Positions 5 through 8,125 of a stretch of 64,000 bases of DNA are shown piece by piece (position 1 is the stretch's first letter; each line of letters starts with the position of its first letter). The stretch spans positions 17,360 to 81,359 of the forward strand of contig CALAIW010000009.1 of assembly GCA_937922705.1 (NCBI GenBank), in the 5' to 3' direction. Source of the DNA: an uncultured bacterium (GTDB lineage Bacteria; Atribacterota; Atribacteria; Atribacterales; Caldatribacteriaceae). The notes below the pieces were generated by a model, which had not been told where the DNA came from, searched no databases, and saw only the letters and a program-made list of their open reading frames with translations. Position numbers and translations under genes: made by a program.

Positions 5-1675
5 GTGCTAAGGACCTTAGTTATTCGCGATTTTATCCTTGTGGAATACCAAGAAATCGCTTTTACCCCGGGGTTCAATGTTATCACAGGGGAGACTGGA
101 ACAGGGAAATCACTTCTTGTAAATGCTCTCTTGCTTCTTCTCGGTGCGCGAGGAAGGGAAGAATGGGTTCGCCCAGGGAGTTCACGGGCAGTTGTGGAAG
201 GGTGTTTTTCTCTTGAAAATGCTCCTAAAGCAAAGCGGAAAATTGAAGAGTTTGGTATTCCCCTCGAAGCCGGAGAATTTGTGGTTCTCTCGCGAGAACT
301 TACTCCGGAAGGAAAGAGTCGAGCCCGTATTAATGGAAGGATAGTTCCTCTTACTTTTCTTCGAGATGTTGGTACAAGCCTTGTGGATATTTGTGGACAA
401 AGAGAGCATACTTCTTTTTTTACTTCCTCAAATATTCTCTACCTTCTTGACTTCTTCCTCTCGGAGGAGGGCAAAGGAATTAAGGAAAAATATAGGATTT
501 GTTTTGAGGAAAGAAAAAAACTTGAAGAAGAATTGGTCTCTCTTGAACGCGGACAGGAAAAGGAACTTGAAGAAGTCGAAGAAATTCTCGAGGAAACGGA
601 GCGCTTGGGTCTTACCCCGGAGAAAATTCTTGCTGTGGAAGAGGAGTTTGGAAGGATATCTCAAGCTCAGAAGTACCTTGAGGCTGCAAGAACATTTATG
701 GAGACCGTCTTAGGGGATAGAGGATTTCTTCAAAAACTTTCCCTTCTTCGTGCCCTTTTCCGAGACCTTTCAGCGGATGTTCATGAGATTCTCGGACGAG
801 TAGAGATTGAACTTGAGGAAGCTCTGGGTCGGGTAAAGGCAATGGAAGATAGCTTCTCCTTCTCTCCAGAGGAAATAGAGATTGTGGAACGAGCCATTGC
901 TGAAGTTGAGCGTCTCAAAAGGAAGTACCACTTTCTCAAGACATCCGATTTTGTGACCTTTTTGGAGGGTGCTAGGGCGAGGAGGGAAACTCTTGAAAGG
1001 GAAATTGCCCGAAAAGAGAAGCTGAGGGAATGTCTTGAGCGTCAAACAAAAGAACTCTTCCTTCTTGGAGAAGAGCTTTCTACAGAGAGGCGCCAGGCCT
1101 TTGAAATCTTTAGGATGCGACTTTTGGAAGAGCTGAGGACGCTTGCTTTGCCGAACGTTACTCTGGAGCTTCTTTTCGAAAGAAAGAAACATCCCGACCC
1201 TGAGGGAATTGATAATGTGGAGCTTTGTGTTGCTCTTAATCCAGGAATGCGTGCCCTTCCAATTCTTGCTGTTGCTTCAGGAGGAGAGCTTTCTCGTATT
1301 ATTCTTGCTCTCAAGAGCATCACTTCCTCTCTGTGGGGAACACCCGTACTCGTGTTTGACGAGATTGACCAAGGTGTTGGGGGTATTACGGCCCTTGGTG
1401 TTGGAGATAAACTTAAAAAACTTGCAAGAACGCATCAGGTTCTTTGTATTACACACCTTCCGCAAATTGCTAGCTTTGCTGATTACCACCTGAAGGTAGA
1501 AAAGTTTTATAGCCCGGAGCGAGTATGGGTGGAAGTGATACCTCTCTCCTCACGGGAGGCTCGCCTTCAGGAAATTGCCCGTATGATGGGAGATGAGGGG
1601 AGGGAAAGCTCGACCCTCGAATATGCCGAAATCCTTATGAGGAAGGCTCAAGGTGGAACTCCTGAAATCAAGTAA
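5..1675 (+). CDS. recN: DNA repair protein RecN
   Basis: RecN is an SMC-like ATPase that acts at double-strand breaks during recombinational repair. The 556-residue protein has the family's usual length. The Walker A motif GETGTGKS is at residues 29-36, the middle is charged and coiled-coil-like, the ABC signature ASGGELSR starts near 424, and the Walker B FDEID is near 451-455. Translation begins at a GTG four bases into the window, so the ribosome binding site cannot be judged and a slightly earlier start is possible. The 3' end overlaps the next gene by 23 bases, which suggests cotranscription. Confidence 0.95.
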   Translation: MLRTLVIRDFILVEYQEIAFTPGFNVITGETGTGKSLLVNALLLLLGARGREEWVRPGSSRAVVEGCFSLENAPKAKRKIEEFGIPLEAGEFVVLSRELTPEGKSRARINGRIVPLTFLRDVGTSLVDICGQREHTSFFTSSNILYLLDFFLSEEGKGIKEKYRICFEERKKLEEELVSLERGQEKELEEVEEILEETERLGLTPEKILAVEEEFGRISQAQKYLEAARTFMETVLGDRGFLQKLSLLRALFRDLSADVHEILGRVEIELEEALGRVKAMEDSFSFSPEEIEIVERAIAEVERLKRKYHFLKTSDFVTFLEGARARRETLEREIARKEKLRECLERQTKELFLLGEELSTERRQAFEIFRMRLLEELRTLALPNVTLELLFERKKHPDPEGIDNVELCVALNPGMRALPILAVASGGELSRIILALKSITSSLWGTPVLVFDEIDQGVGGITALGVGDKLKKLARTHQVLCITHLPQIASFADYHLKVEKFYSPERVWVEVIPLSSREARLQEIARMMGDEGRESSTLEYAEILMRKAQGGTPEIK

Positions 1676-2372
1676 GGTCTTTGAAGAAACCGTAGCGACA
1701 GGTGATATTTTTGTTTTTTGTGGGCCAGGGGGCACAGGAAAGAGTGAAGTAGCGGCAAATTTCTCTGTCTTTTTAGGAGAGAGAGGAACACCCTGTGCCC
1801 TTGTAGACCTTGATTTCTCTAAGGGAGACTTTACTTTGCGGAGCCCGCGGTTTCGCGTTCCTAGTTTTATTTTCCCCCGGGGAGAGAGAGCACCTTATAT
1901 CGAAACCCCTCTTTTTACGCAAGAACTTACTGCGCTTTTTTCTCAAGTGAGAGAAGGATGGCGCCTTGTCATCGACCTTGGAAGAGATGAAAGAGGATTG
2001 CGGCTTTTTCGGAGTTTGCAGCCCCTTTGGGAAGAGAACAGCATTCATGTAACACTTGTAGTCAACTTTGCGCGGCCTTTCTTTGAGGACGTTGTGGGCT
2101 ATGTACGCTTTGTAGAAGATATGAGGCAACGTTATGGTATTCCTTTTTCGTCTCTTGTTGCCAACACGCACCTTATGGGGGAGACGGATGTGCGCCTTCT
2201 TAAAGAGAGCTGGCGAAAAACGCAGTCTCTGGCGGGGACCCTTGGCCTTCCAATTCTTTTTGCAAGTCTCTGGGAGGAGAAGAGGAATTATTACTTTCTT
2301 GTAGATTGGCAAGAAAGCGCGGTTTTTGCCATTTCTCGCTTTCTCGTGCTCCCGTGGAGAGAGGAGGATTAA
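1653..2372 (+). CDS. P-loop ATPase, MinD/CooC-like, upstream of oxidoreductase genes
   Basis: This 239-residue protein has the look of a MinD/ParA/CooC-type nucleotide-binding protein. The P-loop GPGGTGKS is at residues 24-31, followed by a helix resembling the ParA helix and a LVDLDFSKGD stretch typical of the switch region, with a second hydrophobic strand LVIDLGRD further on. The signature lysine that normally precedes the two glycines in the deviant Walker motif is missing; a proline occupies that stretch. It starts at a GTG inside recN and ends two bases before the TTG start of a ferredoxin gene, so it probably belongs with the oxidoreductase operon. A role in assembling or delivering a cofactor to that complex is possible but is only inference. 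Confidence 0.6.
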   Translation: MELLKSSKVFEETVATGDIFVFCGPGGTGKSEVAANFSVFLGERGTPCALVDLDFSKGDFTLRSPRFRVPSFIFPRGERAPYIETPLFTQELTALFSQVREGWRLVIDLGRDERGLRLFRSLQPLWEENSIHVTLVVNFARPFFEDVVGYVRFVEDMRQRYGIPFSSLVANTHLMGETDVRLLKESWRKTQSLAGTLGLPILFASLWEEKRNYYFLVDWQESAVFAISRFLVLPWREED

Positions 2373-2374
2373 CT

Positions 2375-2587
2375 TTGGCTCGGGCAAGAGTGATCATTGA
2401 CCGGGAGTTTTGTAAGGGTTGTGCTCTCTGTACGTACGCGTGTCCGAAGAAAATTCTTGTGATCTCAAGCGACTTTAACTCCCGCGGATACTATCCGGTA
2501 ACTGTCCAAGATGTAGAAAAATGTATTGGTTGTGGATTCTGTGCCCAAGTTTGTCCAGATGTTGCCATTACAGTGTACAGGGAGTGA
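2375..2587 (+). CDS. 2[4Fe-4S] ferredoxin, delta subunit of 2-oxoacid:ferredoxin oxidoreductase
   Basis: This 70-residue protein carries two clusters of the bacterial ferredoxin type: Cys13, 16, 19 and 23, and Cys50, 53, 56 and 60, each with a following proline. It would pass electrons from the catalytic subunits to soluble ferredoxin. The TTG at 2375 is chosen because a GGAGG sits at 2363-2367, seven bases upstream; a longer reading frame from 2306 would add 23 residues without family resemblance. The order delta-alpha-beta-gamma in the next genes matches four-subunit oxidoreductases of the 2-oxoisovalerate/2-oxoglutarate group. Confidence 0.88.
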   Translation: MARARVIIDREFCKGCALCTYACPKKILVISSDFNSRGYYPVTVQDVEKCIGCGFCAQVCPDVAITVYRE

Positions 2588-2592
2588 TTGTT

Positions 2593-3663
2593 ATGGAAAA
2601 GGTTCTTATGCGGGGGAACGAGGCAGTAGCAGAGGCAGCAGTCCGAGCAGGATGCCGCTTGTACTTTGGGTATCCTATAACTCCTCAAAACGAAATTAGT
2701 GAATACCTTTCGTTTCGCCTTCCTCAGGTTGGGGGAGTGTTTCTGCAAGCAGAAAGCGAGGTTGCAGCAATCCACATGATATATGGAGCGGCTTCTACAG
2801 GTGCAAGAGTAATGACGTCTTCCTCGGGTCCTGGTATTAGCCTTATGCAAGAAGGTTTATCGTCCCTCGCAGCCGCTGAGCTTCCTTGTGTTGTAGTGAA
2901 CATGAGTCGAGGAGGACCGGGAGTTGGGAACATTCAGCCAGCACAAAGTGATTACTTCCAAGCGGTGAAAGGGGGCGGTCATGGAGACTACCGACTCATT
3001 GTTCTTGCGCCCTCTACGGTGCAGGAACTTGTGGACTTGACCTATCGAGCCTTCTATCTTGCCGACAAGTATCGCAACCCTGTGGAGATTCTGGGAGATG
3101 GAATGCTTGGGCAAATGATGGAGCCAGTTGTCTTTAGAGATCCTGAGTTCCCGCCTCTTCCTCCCAAGGATTGGGCTGTACGGGGTAAGGGAAATGGCCC
3201 CCGAAAGTGGATTGTGTGCTTTGATCTTGATCCAAAGGGTCTTGAGGAGTTGAACTTGAGGCTTTGGAGGAAGTATCGTAGACTTGAGGAGGAAGAGGTA
3301 GACTATGTGACCTTTGGATGTTCCGAACCCGAGGTTCTCCTTGTGGGTTTTGGGACGGTGGGTCGCATCTTGCGGAGCGTTGTTCGGGAAGGAGAGAAAG
3401 AGGGTCTGAAACTTGCCCTTTTTCGACCCATAACTCTCTTTCCCTTTCCCAAGAAGGCGCTTCAGGAATATGCACGGAAAGCGCGAGCAGTTCTGGTAGT
3501 GGAGATGAATCTTGGCCAAATGCTTGAGGACGTAGAACTTGCTGTGCGGGGCGAGGTTCCGGTGTTTTTTCTTGGACACACTGGCGGTGTTATTCCCACG
3601 GTTGAGGAAGTTCTGGAATACATCCATTTCCTCCTGGCGAAGGAGGTGCGAGTGTGGAAGTAG
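2593..3663 (+). CDS. 2-oxoacid:ferredoxin oxidoreductase alpha subunit (VorA/KorA type)
   Basis: The alpha subunit forms the thiamine-pyrophosphate pyrimidine-binding part of the enzyme that oxidatively decarboxylates a 2-oxoacid to an acyl-CoA. The 356-residue protein has the family hallmarks FGYPITPQNE near the N-terminus, the conserved glutamate region QAESEVAAI, and GGPGVGNIQP. The C-terminal transketolase-like domain ends with the VVEMNLGQM stretch. ATG 2593 is preceded by AGGGAG at 2579-2584. The substrate cannot be settled from sequence alone; 2-oxoisovalerate and 2-oxoglutarate enzymes look alike here. The next gene overlaps by ten bases. Confidence 0.92.
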   Translation: MEKVLMRGNEAVAEAAVRAGCRLYFGYPITPQNEISEYLSFRLPQVGGVFLQAESEVAAIHMIYGAASTGARVMTSSSGPGISLMQEGLSSLAAAELPCVVVNMSRGGPGVGNIQPAQSDYFQAVKGGGHGDYRLIVLAPSTVQELVDLTYRAFYLADKYRNPVEILGDGMLGQMMEPVVFRDPEFPPLPPKDWAVRGKGNGPRKWIVCFDLDPKGLEELNLRLWRKYRRLEEEEVDYVTFGCSEPEVLLVGFGTVGRILRSVVREGEKEGLKLALFRPITLFPFPKKALQEYARKARAVLVVEMNLGQMLEDVELAVRGEVPVFFLGHTGGVIPTVEEVLEYIHFLLAKEVRVWK

Positions 3664-4412
3664 TTTTTAAGCGTCCAAGAACGCTCCTTAAGAAGCCCTT
3701 TACCTATTGTCCCGGGTGTCACCATGGGCTTGCTCAACGGCTTATCGCCGAGGTTATCGATGAACTCAATATTGCTGACCGTACTATTGGAGTGGGACCC
3801 ATAGGTTGTTCAGTGTACATTTATGAGTTCATTGATGTGGATTTCGTCGTAGGGGCTCATGGAAGGGCACCTGCTATTGCTACAGGAATTAAGAGAGCTC
3901 TTCCCGATTGTGTTGTCTTCTCGTATCAGGGTGATGGTGATATCGCGGCTATTGGAACCTCAGAAATCATTCACGTTGCTAATCGTGGTGAACTCATTAC
4001 CGCTTTTTTTGTCAATAACGCCGTTTTTGGGATGACAGGTGGACAAATGGCTCCCACAACACTTGTAGGACAAAAGACAAAAACCACACCTTTTGGAAGA
4101 AACCCAGAGGTGCATGGTTTTCCCTTTCGTCTTGGGGAATGCCTGAGCGTCGCTGAAGGAAGCGCATACATCGCTCGAGTAGCGCTCACCCGTCCACAGT
4201 TTATTCGCCAAGCCAAGGAATGCATTCGCAAAGCTTTCCTCGCCCAGATTGAACAAAAGGGATTTGCTCTTGTAGAAATTCTCTCTCCCTGTCCGACGAA
4301 CTGGGGAATGAGCCCGAAAGAAGCGGTAGACTGGCTCGAGCAACATATGATTCCCTACTTTCCCCTTGGTGAACTCAAGGTAAAGGAGTGCCTGTCCCGT
4401 GAAACATCATGA
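3654..4412 (+). CDS. 2-oxoacid:ferredoxin oxidoreductase beta subunit
   Basis: The beta subunit binds thiamine pyrophosphate. In this 252-residue protein the N-terminal CPGC motif (Cys19, Cys22) is followed by histidines, and the TPP signature runs from GDGD at 93-96 to Asn121-Asn122 with the downstream GMTGGQ. It starts at a GTG ten bases inside the alpha gene and ends 14 bases inside the gamma gene, so the three catalytic subunits are translationally coupled. The family assignment is firm; substrate specificity is not. Confidence 0.93.
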   Translation: MEVVFKRPRTLLKKPFTYCPGCHHGLAQRLIAEVIDELNIADRTIGVGPIGCSVYIYEFIDVDFVVGAHGRAPAIATGIKRALPDCVVFSYQGDGDIAAIGTSEIIHVANRGELITAFFVNNAVFGMTGGQMAPTTLVGQKTKTTPFGRNPEVHGFPFRLGECLSVAEGSAYIARVALTRPQFIRQAKECIRKAFLAQIEQKGFALVEILSPCPTNWGMSPKEAVDWLEQHMIPYFPLGELKVKECLSRETS

Positions 4413-4950
4413 GATTCTTATTGCTGGTTTCGGAGGACAAGGCATTCTCTTTCTTGGAAGAACCCTTGCTTTAGCAGGGATGTTTGAAGGGTATGAAGTA
4501 AGCTGGTATCCATCCTATGGGCCGGAGATGCGAGGAGGAACAGCTAATTGCACGGTAATTGTTTCAGAAGAAGAAATTGGTGCTACTATCTCTGACCATC
4601 CGGATATCTGCATTGTCATGAATGAACCTTCATTTCACCGTTTTGTTCCTCTTGTTCGCCCAAAGGGGCTCCTTGTGGTAAATACCTCACTTGTTCGGAC
4701 ACACTGTCCTCGTGAAGACCTTGAGGTGCTCCCTGTCCCAGCGAACGACTTGGCCAGAGTCTATCTTAATGGAGCAGAAGTTACAAATACCATTATTCTC
4801 GGAGCCCTCCTTGCCCGTTGTCCTGTGGTGTGCAGAAAGAGTGCAGAGTGGGCACTTGCTGAGGCTTTGCGAGGAAAGCGAGAGAGTCTCTACACGTTGA
4901 ATCTGAAAGCTCTTGGGGTTGGATGGGAGTTTGTTGCCAAGGGGGGATAG
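4399..4950 (+). CDS. 2-oxoacid:ferredoxin oxidoreductase gamma subunit
   Basis: The 183-residue protein is a standalone gamma subunit, which forms the domain that helps bind CoA and bridge the catalytic subunits. It shows the family motif AGFGGQGILF near the N-terminus and YGPEMRGG, a conserved loop of this subunit family. It starts at GTG 4399 inside the beta gene and is the last subunit of the delta-alpha-beta-gamma set. Four bases separate its stop from the CBS/ACT gene. Confidence 0.92.
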   Translation: MKHHEILIAGFGGQGILFLGRTLALAGMFEGYEVSWYPSYGPEMRGGTANCTVIVSEEEIGATISDHPDICIVMNEPSFHRFVPLVRPKGLLVVNTSLVRTHCPREDLEVLPVPANDLARVYLNGAEVTNTIILGALLARCPVVCRKSAEWALAEALRGKRESLYTLNLKALGVGWEFVAKGG

Positions 4951-4953
4951 GAT

Positions 4954-5634
4954 ATGCTCGTTCGGGATAGGATGACTAAAGAGGTAATCACCATACCCAG
5001 CTCGACCACTATTCTTGAGGCTCAGAAAACTATGCGGGAGAGCCGAGTACGAAGGCTTCCGGTTGTTGATGGTGGGAAACTCGTGGGTATTGTTACCTAT
5101 AACGATCTCCTTGAGGCGTCACCCTCAAAGGTGACAACCTTAAGTCGTTTTGAGCTTACCTATCTTCTGAGTAAAATGACCGTTGCAGAAATCATGACAC
5201 GGAATGTTGTAACTGTGCCCCCTGATGTTCCTATTGAAGAAGCGGCTCTCGTCATGCAAAAGCATCAGATTGGTGGGTTGCCGGTGGTGGAAGAAGGAAA
5301 AATTGTAGGGATTATTACTGAGTCTGACATTTTTGAAGTTTTTGTGGAGACCCTTGGTGTTTGGGAAGGGGGAACGCGAATTACCCTTGAACTCCCTCAG
5401 AGACCTGGTGCACTTCATGAAGTTACTGGCATTATCAAAGAACATGGGCTGAACATTTTAAGCCTTGCCACTTTTTACGAGGAGGGAAAACCTGAGTACC
5501 GATATGTTGTGCTTCGTCTCAACACTCTGCATCCTGAAAGGGTGGTGACAAGATTAAAAGAAAAGGGCATCTCCGTGTGTCACGTATGGGTTGCGCCTAA
5601 GGGGGAGAATGGCTATGTTCTTTCCATACAGTGA
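4954..5634 (+). CDS. CBS-CBS-ACT domain protein, AcuB-like
   Basis: This 226-residue protein has two CBS domains (about residues 1-57 and 75-135) and an ACT domain (about 143-210), the architecture of AcuB-type proteins. CBS pairs usually bind adenosine nucleotides and ACT domains usually bind amino acids, so a regulatory sensor role is likely. It lies four bases after the oxidoreductase gamma gene. If that enzyme acts on branched-chain 2-oxoacids, an amino-acid/adenylate sensor would fit, but this link is inference. Its end overlaps the next gene. Confidence 0.8.
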   Translation: MLVRDRMTKEVITIPSSTTILEAQKTMRESRVRRLPVVDGGKLVGIVTYNDLLEASPSKVTTLSRFELTYLLSKMTVAEIMTRNVVTVPPDVPIEEAALVMQKHQIGGLPVVEEGKIVGIITESDIFEVFVETLGVWEGGTRITLELPQRPGALHEVTGIIKEHGLNILSLATFYEEGKPEYRYVVLRLNTLHPERVVTRLKEKGISVCHVWVAPKGENGYVLSIQ

Positions 5635-6175
5635 AAGTCAGATTGATTTTTCAAAACCAGAGATTGAAAGAGAAGAAGTCCTTTTAAGTACGAGAGTATT
5701 TCAAGTCGTTCGGAGAATATACCGAGGGGGAATGGAACGTATTTTCATTCGTCACCGGGGTGCAGTAACTGTTGTAGCTACAACTCCGGAAAATAAGATG
5801 CTTCTTATTCGGCAATTTCGAGCTCCTCTTGGAGAATGGCTCTGGGAGATCCCAGCAGGAACTCTCGAGGAGGACGAGGATCCCCTCCTTTGCGCACAAC
5901 GGGAACTCGAGGAAGAAACTGGCTTTTTTTCTACGGAGTGGTCTTATCTTTTCCCCGTATGTCTTGCACCGGGGTATAGCAGTGAGGTTATTCATTTCTT
6001 CCGGGCAAAGAATGCTCGTCCGGTAAAAGGCCACATCCGTCCAGGAGATGAAGATGAAGTTATCTACTGCCTTGAGGCCACAAGGGAAGAGGTGCTTTCT
6101 TTTTTGCAGCAAGGGATTATTAAGGACGCTAAAACTATCATAGGCCTTCAGTACTGGCTTGGTGAAAGTGTATGA
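5615..6175 (+). CDS. NUDIX hydrolase, ADP-ribose pyrophosphatase type
   Basis: NUDIX pyrophosphatases of this type split ADP-ribose into AMP and ribose 5-phosphate. The complete Nudix box begins at Gly82 (GTLEEDE) and runs through REL-EE-TGF near 97-104, in the correct G-x5-E-x7-RE-x2-EE-x-G spacing. The preceding WEIPAG and following PGYSSE are typical of ADP-ribose pyrophosphatases. ATG 5615 follows a G-rich Shine-Dalgarno at 5601-5607; ATG 5609 is an alternative two codons upstream. The downstream neighbours also act on ribose phosphates and nucleosides, which supports a nucleotide-salvage role. Confidence 0.86.
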   Translation: MFFPYSESQIDFSKPEIEREEVLLSTRVFQVVRRIYRGGMERIFIRHRGAVTVVATTPENKMLLIRQFRAPLGEWLWEIPAGTLEEDEDPLLCAQRELEEETGFFSTEWSYLFPVCLAPGYSSEVIHFFRAKNARPVKGHIRPGDEDEVIYCLEATREEVLSFLQQGIIKDAKTIIGLQYWLGESV

Positions 6176-7338
6176 GGGTTTTCGTTGCACTTCTTGATGG
6201 GGTTGGTGTTGGAGAACTTCCAGATGCCAAACTTTACGGGGATGAAGGAAGCCATACGTTACGGAATATTGCACAAGCAATTGGCGGTCTTTTCCTTCCT
6301 CATCTTGCTCAACTTGGCCTCGGGTTAATTGACGAGATTCCAGGGGTTCTTCCCCACACGCCTCCTCAAGGTCTCTACGGTAAGATGCTCGAACAATCTC
6401 CAGGAAAGGACACAACGAGTGGCCACTGGGAGATAGCTGGGATTATCCTCGAAAGACCATTCCCTGTATATCCTGAGGGCTTTCCTCAGGAAGTGGTAAG
6501 ACGTATTGAGGAAGCTATTGGACGGCACATTCTGGGGAACAAACCTGCTTCGGGAACGGTTATCATCGAAGAATTGGGTGCCGAACATCTCCGTACAGGG
6601 TTTCCCATAGTCTACACTTCTGCAGATAGTGTCCTTCAGGTTGCGGCTCACGAAGAGGTTATTCCTCTTTCAGAACTCTATGCCATTTGCGAGAAAATAC
6701 GGGCTATTATGACGGGGGAGCATGCTGTGGCACGAGTCATTGCCCGTCCCTTTCAGGGAAAGCCAGGGTCGTTCTGGCGAACCCCAAACCGGCGCGATTT
6801 TTCTCTTCCCCCTCCTCGAGAGACTATTCTTGATACTCTTTCTCAACATGGGAAAAGAGTTGTGGGTGTTGGGAAAATTTGGGATATCTTTGCGGGACGG
6901 GGTATCGAGGAAAGCATTGCAACCAAGGGGAACGAGGAGACTTTTTCTATACTTTGTGAGATGGTAAAGCGTAGCGATGTTGCTCTTGTATGGGCAAATT
7001 TCAATGACTTTGATACCCTGTATGGGCATCGAAATGACCCTCGGGGTTTTGCTCAAGCTCTTGAGGCCTGGGATAGGAAACTTGGGGTATTTCTCCCCCT
7101 TCTTCGGAAAGACGATGTTCTTATTATCACGAGCGATCACGGTTGTGATCCTACGACCCCAAGTACGGATCATTCCCGGGAGTATGCTCTTCTTCTTGTG
7201 TTTTCGCCGTGTTTGCCTTGTGGAGGGCCTCTGGGCATTCGGAAGACCTTTGCTGATATTGCCGCTACTCTTGCTGAGCTTTTTGGGGTTGAATGGCATG
7301 GTCCGGGGGAAAGCTTTGCTGTCGCTCTTGTATCCTGA
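6172..7338 (+). CDS. deoB: Phosphopentomutase
   Basis: DeoB interconverts ribose or deoxyribose 1-phosphate and 5-phosphate in nucleoside catabolism. The 388-residue protein belongs to the alkaline phosphatase superfamily. The metal-binding LLDGVGVG is at the N-terminus, the phosphorylatable residue region KDTTSGHWE is at 79-87, and a metal-ligand cluster ITSDHGCDPTT lies in the last third. It overlaps the NUDIX stop codon through ATGA and overlaps the nucleoside phosphorylase gene, so phosphorolysis and the mutase step are encoded back to back. Confidence 0.95.
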   Translation: MRVFVALLDGVGVGELPDAKLYGDEGSHTLRNIAQAIGGLFLPHLAQLGLGLIDEIPGVLPHTPPQGLYGKMLEQSPGKDTTSGHWEIAGIILERPFPVYPEGFPQEVVRRIEEAIGRHILGNKPASGTVIIEELGAEHLRTGFPIVYTSADSVLQVAAHEEVIPLSELYAICEKIRAIMTGEHAVARVIARPFQGKPGSFWRTPNRRDFSLPPPRETILDTLSQHGKRVVGVGKIWDIFAGRGIEESIATKGNEETFSILCEMVKRSDVALVWANFNDFDTLYGHRNDPRGFAQALEAWDRKLGVFLPLLRKDDVLIITSDHGCDPTTPSTDHSREYALLLVFSPCLPCGGPLGIRKTFADIAATLAELFGVEWHGPGESFAVALVS

Positions 7339-8125
7339 AGATTTCCTAACAAGGCTTGAGAACATGGCGCGTACTTTTCCTGAAAAACCCTCATGTGCCG
7401 TTATAGCAGGCTCAGGATGGGGTGGGTATAGTGGGGGAGATACTGAGAAAGTAATACTCTTTTCCGATCTGCATCCTTCGCTCCATACGGGCATTCCTGG
7501 TCATCAGGGAATTTTTCGCTTTGTACGTCTTGAGGATACAATCTTTCTCTTTGTCGAAGGGCGTGTGCACCTCTACGAAGGATACGGACTTTCAGAGGTA
7601 CTCATTCCCCTTACCTTTGCGTACCTTCTTGGGGTACGGATTGTTGTGCTCACTAGTGCTTCAGGAAGCCTTTCACCTTTCCTTTCCCCAGGAAGTGTTC
7701 TCGTTCTTTCGGATCAAATCGACTGGACCTTTATCCCTGATTTTTTGCCGCGAGCGCAGTTTGACGAGAGTCTTCAGGAAATTGCCCTTTCCTGTGCCAG
7801 GCGTTTCAATCTTGAGGCGATTCGAGGAGTGTATGTGGGAGTTCTTGGTCCGTCTTTTGAAACTGCGGCAGAGATTCGAATGCTTGGATACTTTGGAGGA
7901 CATGCCGTAGGAATGTCTACAGTGAAAGAGGCAAAATGGGCTACAGCTTTGGGATTGAAAGTTCTTGGGCTTTCGCTTGTTACAAACTGGGGAACCGGTT
8001 TATCTTCCTCTTCCCTCACTCATGAAGAGGTCCTCTCCCTTGCAGGGCTTAAAAAACCAGTACTTCATGCCTTTTTGCGTGACCTTATTGTAGAGGTCCT
8101 CCATGAAGATTGTCGTGAGTCATGA
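7298..8125 (+). CDS. Purine nucleoside phosphorylase (trimeric type)
   Basis: The enzyme cleaves purine nucleosides with phosphate to give the base and ribose 1-phosphate, which DeoB then converts. Family landmarks are the phosphate loop GSGWGG, GIPGHQG, HLYEGY, TSASGSL, the active-site GPSFETAAE stretch, VGMSTVKE and TNWGTG. The start is uncertain: ATG 7298 gives 275 residues, while TTG 7316 has a better GGGGGA at 7305-7310 and gives 269. The gene overlaps deoB upstream and the next gene by 23 bases downstream. Confidence 0.92.
   Translation: MVRGKALLSLLYPEDFLTRLENMARTFPEKPSCAVIAGSGWGGYSGGDTEKVILFSDLHPSLHTGIPGHQGIFRFVRLEDTIFLFVEGRVHLYEGYGLSEVLIPLTFAYLLGVRIVVLTSASGSLSPFLSPGSVLVLSDQIDWTFIPDFLPRAQFDESLQEIALSCARRFNLEAIRGVYVGVLGPSFETAAEIRMLGYFGGHAVGMSTVKEAKWATALGLKVLGLSLVTNWGTGLSSSSLTHEEVLSLAGLKKPVLHAFLRDLIVEVLHEDCRES

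Follow-up and report, generated by a model that had tools for sequence, protein, structure and literature searches.

Anaerobes rely on 2-oxoacid:ferredoxin oxidoreductases for much of their amino-acid fermentation and reversible CO2 chemistry, and we know of no ATP requirement in this enzyme class. What, then, does a small ATPase do when its gene lies directly before those of a four-subunit member of the class? We addressed this question in a 64,000-nucleotide stretch of bacterial DNA (the window), where the ATPase gene (1653-2372, forward strand) encodes 239 residues from a GTG start to a TAA stop at 2370-2372. The original prediction described the product as a MinD-like ATPase that lacks the signature lysine, heads the oxidoreductase operon and resembles the nickel-inserting helper CooC.

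The arrangement of the locus was largely as predicted. The possible start codon of korD (TTG at 2375; gene 2375-2587), which encodes a ferredoxin-like subunit with two 4Fe-4S motifs, lies two bases past the ATPase stop codon, and its AGGAGG ribosome-binding site (2362-2367) is located inside the ATPase gene, which suggests translational coupling. The genes for the alpha subunit (korA/vorB, 2593-3663; NCBIfam VorB NF005507, 521.6 bits against a cut-off of 399), the TPP-binding beta subunit (korB, 3654-4412) and the gamma subunit (korC, 4399-4950) follow on the same strand. The ATPase gene is not the strict head of the operon, however, because recN (5-1675, same strand; a DNA repair ATPase by Pfam SMC_N/AAA_23), which belongs to a conserved nadK-recN block, lies upstream and overlaps it by 23 nt. 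The next gene after korC (4954-5634, same strand) encodes a CBS-CBS-ACT protein, probably a ligand sensor, and is retained in the window's taxonomic order. The whole run from 5 to 8125 is kept in that order, comprising recN, the ATPase gene, korDABC, the CBS-ACT gene, a NUDIX hydrolase gene, deoB and a purine-nucleoside-phosphorylase-like gene. Elsewhere, the window's genome contains one PTA/PTB-type gene and two acetate-kinase-type genes.

The ATPase reading frame is a real gene, since homologs were matched in 39 of 61 related genomes, full-length in most of the 39, and dN/dS values within the genus, where computable, were 0.07-0.12, indicating purifying selection. Its P-loop, GPGGTGKSE (residues 24-32, 1722-1748), keeps the catalytic Lys30 and has Pro25 at the signature-lysine position, as had been proposed. 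Among 96 aligned homologs, this position was occupied by lysine in only one and by other residues in the remaining 95, while Glu32 was kept in 95. The homolog alignment further identified a DLD motif with the switch I region (residues 52-63, 1806-1841; DLDFSKGDFTLR), which reads DLDIVNPYFRxR in most relatives, with Asp52 and Asp54 invariant and Arg63 nearly so, and a Walker B/switch II element (residues 108-112, 1974-1988). The latter is DVGGD in most relatives and DLGRD in the window's genus, with arginine in place of the second glycine; arginine at residue 111 was observed in 4 of the 96 homologs. Invariant columns across the alignment were Gly24, Gly27, Gly29, Lys30, Asp52, Asp54, Asp108, Gly115, Asn138, Arg141 and Asn171. 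Alignment and structural model place N171-T-H-L (2163-2174) at the end of a beta-strand, in what is, judging from the order of the elements, the presumed counterpart of the TKxD/NKxD guanine motif of SRP-type or HypB/UreG GTPases. That motif is missing in the 96 homologs, which show N171-[TPS]-[HN]-L, with an invariant Asn171 and neither lysine nor aspartate, and its absence favours ATP rather than GTP as the probable nucleotide.

Modelled with AlphaFold2, the window protein and L105, a more typical member of the family, both reached a pLDDT of 90. The nearest solved fold of the window protein was ATPase-type HypB (PDB 5auq and 3vx3; E 4.8e-07, TM about 0.45, ~20% identity), which handles nickel for hydrogenase, and those of L105 were the SRP GTPases FtsY and Ffh (TMq 0.48-0.58); TM scores over both models were moderate, about 0.43-0.58. 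A viral fold library gave no useful match. The P-loop, D-x-D, DxxG (DLGR in the window's genus) and terminal asparagine occur in the order of the SIMIBI class, and we assign the protein to that class from its modelled fold and this motif order. "MinD-like" therefore holds at the level of the class but not of the family. The first ~40 residues of most members resemble the MinD/ParA models (Pfam CbiA PF01656 and ParA PF10609), and the likeness is that of a SIMIBI P-loop, but the window protein fell below every MinD/ParA cut-off (PF10609, 22.3 of 27.1; PF01656, 21.3 of 25.4; TIGR01969, 19.1 of 201.75). Matches in Pfam and NCBIfam were confined to short P-loop segments and, for the window protein, stayed under the cut-offs; no family in either collection covers the ATPase. 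The SRP GTPases likewise lack the signature lysine, but the ATPase is shorter, is without the TKxD motif and showed no link to protein export genes.

To examine the genomic context of the family, we collected loci by ATPase sequence alone. A scan of species genomes returned at least 565 relatives, of which the 80 most query-like were kept; relatives were found in Bacillota, Zixibacteria, Deltaproteobacteria, Planctomycetes, Acidobacteria, WOR-3, Calditrichota and Atribacterota. Members of the family occur in many anaerobes as well as in some non-anaerobic bacteria. In 115 of the 122 homolog loci with enough flanking sequence, from about eight phyla, korDABC lay directly downstream on the same strand, a count made with rough gene calling in GC-rich loci and with several fragmented assemblies. 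The gap between the ATPase and kor genes had a median of 19 nt and was at most 50 nt in 90 of the 115 loci. The pairing that the original prediction proposed to look for thus recurs across phyla, and no examined homolog neighbourhood was dominated by chromosome-partition genes, the context that had been named as evidence against the link. ATPases fused to a kor subunit were not seen.

The other neighbours vary (ptb/buk, NuoEFG-like genes or none), while the kor genes are constant. Outside the window these neighbours were named by eye from their sequences: a regulator with buk-ptb-buk precedes the ATPase gene in many Bacillota and other Atribacterota, nadK-recN precedes it in the window's order, and NuoE/F/G-like genes follow korC in Zixibacteria and others. 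We rejected a partnership with RecN or with ptb-buk because those neighbours change and kor stays. Two genomes outside the phylum (L188 and L189) keep the layout nadK-recN-buk-(ptb)-buk-ATPase-korDABC, so that the gene order in the window looks like the same layout stripped of ptb-buk.

We next compared the distribution of the ATPase with that of the enzyme. Across 291 genomes, a VorB-type alpha subunit was present in all 51 genomes with the ATPase and in 94 of the 240 without it (Fisher p 1.7e-18, uncorrected for kinship); outside the window's phylum, all 14 ATPase genomes had VorB (p 1.9e-06). The same pattern was obtained in 150 Bacillota, where 59 of 59 genomes carrying the VorB-linked form of the ATPase (group A, to whose window-order branch the window protein belongs), separated by score at ~180 bits from a second form (group B), had VorB, as opposed to 36 of 91 others. 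Where the ATPase gene was unlinked to kor, a VorB-type gene was found elsewhere in the genome; at one contig end (L127) only a partial VorB match, below cut-off, was present. Conversely, no ATPase was detected in 94 of the 145 VorB genomes, and a profile search upstream of ATPase-less VorB operons, three of which (L195, L209 and L210) are cut off by contig ends in that region, found no divergent ATPase. Because every ATPase genome has the enzyme while many VorB genomes are without the ATPase, the ATPase goes with the enzyme and the enzyme does not need the ATPase, making the latter a co-evolving but dispensable partner.

A sister family in the window's order (f3) offers a natural absence. Here about 50-80 nt separate recN from korD, which comes next, and the ATPase gene alone is missing; no ATPase was found near the kor locus or elsewhere in the f3 genomes, although their KorA is ~68-71% identical to that of the window. 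In the KorA tree, f3 and the window's order belong to a single starred set, a placement that by itself fits gain or loss. Loss is the simpler reading, since both the remaining families of the order and other phyla have the ATPase at this position. Position 9 of KorA (window gene 2593-3663; f3 loci L191-L198) is glutamate in all 114 ATPase-linked enzymes and aspartate in 8 of 8 f3 enzymes, and KorB Gly217 is replaced by alanine or lysine in the six sister-family enzymes readable there. Neither position passed a tree-controlled sign test (for Glu9, about 1.8 pairs for and 0 against, too few for significance), and Glu9 is a possible contact with the ATPase.

A lower score band of ATPase matches in the Bacillota survey revealed the second subfamily, group B, with the motifs GEYASGKSE (P-loop) and DLDxVEPFYTLRP. 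All 13 group-B loci read (L239-L249, L256 and L258), from which the group is known, have kor genes of a different type nearby, and in nearly every case the ATPase gene immediately precedes a korA-B-C-D operon; in L258, the korA that was found lies ~3.7 kb downstream. Group-B KorA shares only 33-37% identity with that of the window, and the one that was scanned reached no NCBIfam cut-off. As a group-B profile matched only group-A proteins in the 291-genome set, group B may be confined to Bacillota. It forms a single clade in both the ATPase and the KorA tree, so that two ATPase clades match two enzyme clades, in fast trees whose single branches are not to be relied on. Pairwise distances in the two trees were correlated (r 0.65 in group A and 0.76 outside Atribacterota; 0 of 1,000 permutations), with shared species history contributing. 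On this basis we propose a family of oxoacid-oxidoreductase-linked NTPases defined by G-x-x-[GA]-x-G-K-[ST]-E and adjacency to korDABC or korABCD; the window protein has both features.

Adjacency, one-way co-occurrence, matching clades and the clean absence in the sister family point to the ATPase as a dedicated partner, and the evidence for its link with the oxidoreductase is strong. The family would thus consist of dedicated partners of four-subunit 2-oxoacid:ferredoxin oxidoreductases, and very probably the ATPase assists or controls this enzyme specifically, without being essential to it. Because it accompanies the enzyme from phylum to phylum, has diversified alongside it, retains nucleotide motifs and can be missing while the enzyme stays, it is best read as a dedicated accessory switch. 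The ATPase may bind the oxidoreductase and, through nucleotide binding and hydrolysis acting as a conformational switch, may help to assemble it, to load its Fe-S or TPP cofactors or to keep it active, improving the enzyme without being indispensable for catalysis. Assembly, cofactor loading and regulation are indistinguishable from sequence; assembly or cofactor loading is our first choice and activity control our second. Taken as a whole, the proposal of a SIMIBI partner serving as a nucleotide-driven assembly or activation switch seems to us evenly poised between right and wrong.

A related four-subunit enzyme bears on this reading. HpdDEFG, found with HpdJ/HpdK, shares the enzyme class and the ptb-buk neighbourhood of ATPase-bearing relatives, but it is treated as a four-gene unit and the text of the paper contains no ATPase (PMC13285125). 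Its in vitro activity following chemical Fe-S reconstitution speaks against the ATPase being strictly required, and oxidoreductases of this class are described as hard to reconstitute (PMC13285125).

Several other roles can be weighed against an assembly switch. The ATPase might instead be an adenylate-sensing subunit of the mature oxidoreductase that tunes activity or direction by the ATP/ADP ratio and has no part in assembly. Its dispensability in many lineages is in line with this, and an energy sensor would fit the runs of other Atribacterota and Bacillota that hold ptb-buk, through which the acyl-CoA product yields ATP; the Glu9/Asp9 difference in KorA could be a trace of such control on the enzyme. 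Nevertheless, the covariation loses significance once the tree is considered, and the conservation of the catalytic motifs, under purifying selection, hints at turnover, so that we hold a pure regulator possible but on the whole unlikely. A SIMIBI kinase or ligase acting on a pathway substrate or product, comparable to dethiobiotin synthetase or CobB, appears quite unlikely. The conserved Arg63, together with the invariant Arg141 and with His/Asn173, could form a site for an anionic substrate, and acyl-phosphate chemistry adjoins the locus in many relatives, but ptb-buk operons already contain kinases, and two oxidoreductases each with its own ATPase clade better suit a protein partner.

The analogy with CooC was not supported. 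CooC, NifH and the Mrp-NBP35 proteins are also SIMIBI ATPases encoded beside a client enzyme, but the alignment of 96 homologs has no column with more than 30% cysteine, and hence no conserved CxC or CxxC, and its only histidine column above 30% is mixed, with His in 57 of 96 sequences, shared with Asn. With no Cys or His ligand pair conserved, a metal role of this kind is unsupported, and the client has no special cluster and, to our knowledge, like all four-subunit 2-oxoacid oxidoreductases, no nickel. We rejected a CooC/Mrp-like carrier of metal or Fe-S clusters on the lack of cysteine and regard it as very improbable, despite the several 4Fe-4S clusters of the client and a weak P-loop-region similarity to NUBPL/Mrp models. 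Just as improbable is an ATP-driven activator that lowers the potential of the oxidoreductase or of KorD, as a cluster-less analogue of nitrogenase reductase: NifH belongs to the SIMIBI class and the pairing with a ferredoxin-linked enzyme is constant, yet the cysteines for a cluster are missing and, as far as we know, the enzyme class does not require ATP. We give least credence to the idea that the ATPase has nothing to do with the enzyme, being either a passive neighbour or a MinD/McdA-like positioning ATPase. The SIMIBI class would accommodate it and many operon neighbours are functionally unrelated, as recN is here, but in about eight phyla the pairing has persisted through changes in the other neighbours, and there is a second, paralogous ATPase-enzyme pair. 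MinD-like positioning was rejected as the best reading because the signature lysine used by positioning ATPases is absent and no partition or division context was seen.

The assembly or activation switch that we prefer would have consequences beyond this locus. In the literature searched, we found no mention of the pairing. The family is unnamed and without a curated model, and its members probably carry generic ATP-binding annotations; to name the family after its partner is a direct and testable gain. An overlooked ATP-dependent partner encoded in hundreds of genomes could account for part of the difficulty of reconstitution and would reveal ATP as a participant in the assembly or control of the enzyme. 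A bolder and rather doubtful extension is that each of the two co-diversified ATPases uses ATP to energise its own oxidoreductase or to gate its activity; if true, part of the enzyme class would be nucleotide-controlled or ATP-assisted, beyond the textbook mechanism.

Two further observations concern Bacillota and similar records. In some Bacillota (L128, L129, L134 and L252-L255), the ATPase is read in a single open frame behind a domain that by eye resembles FolC (folylpolyglutamate synthase), and it is located away from the kor genes. Loci L126, L148 and L172 show that Bacillus-type genomes, Mesobacillus subterraneus (L126) and Bacillus sp. ISL-37, have the ATPase-korDABC set as well, and a record assigned to Chryseobacterium sp. 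ISL-80 shows the same neighbourhood and may be mislabelled.
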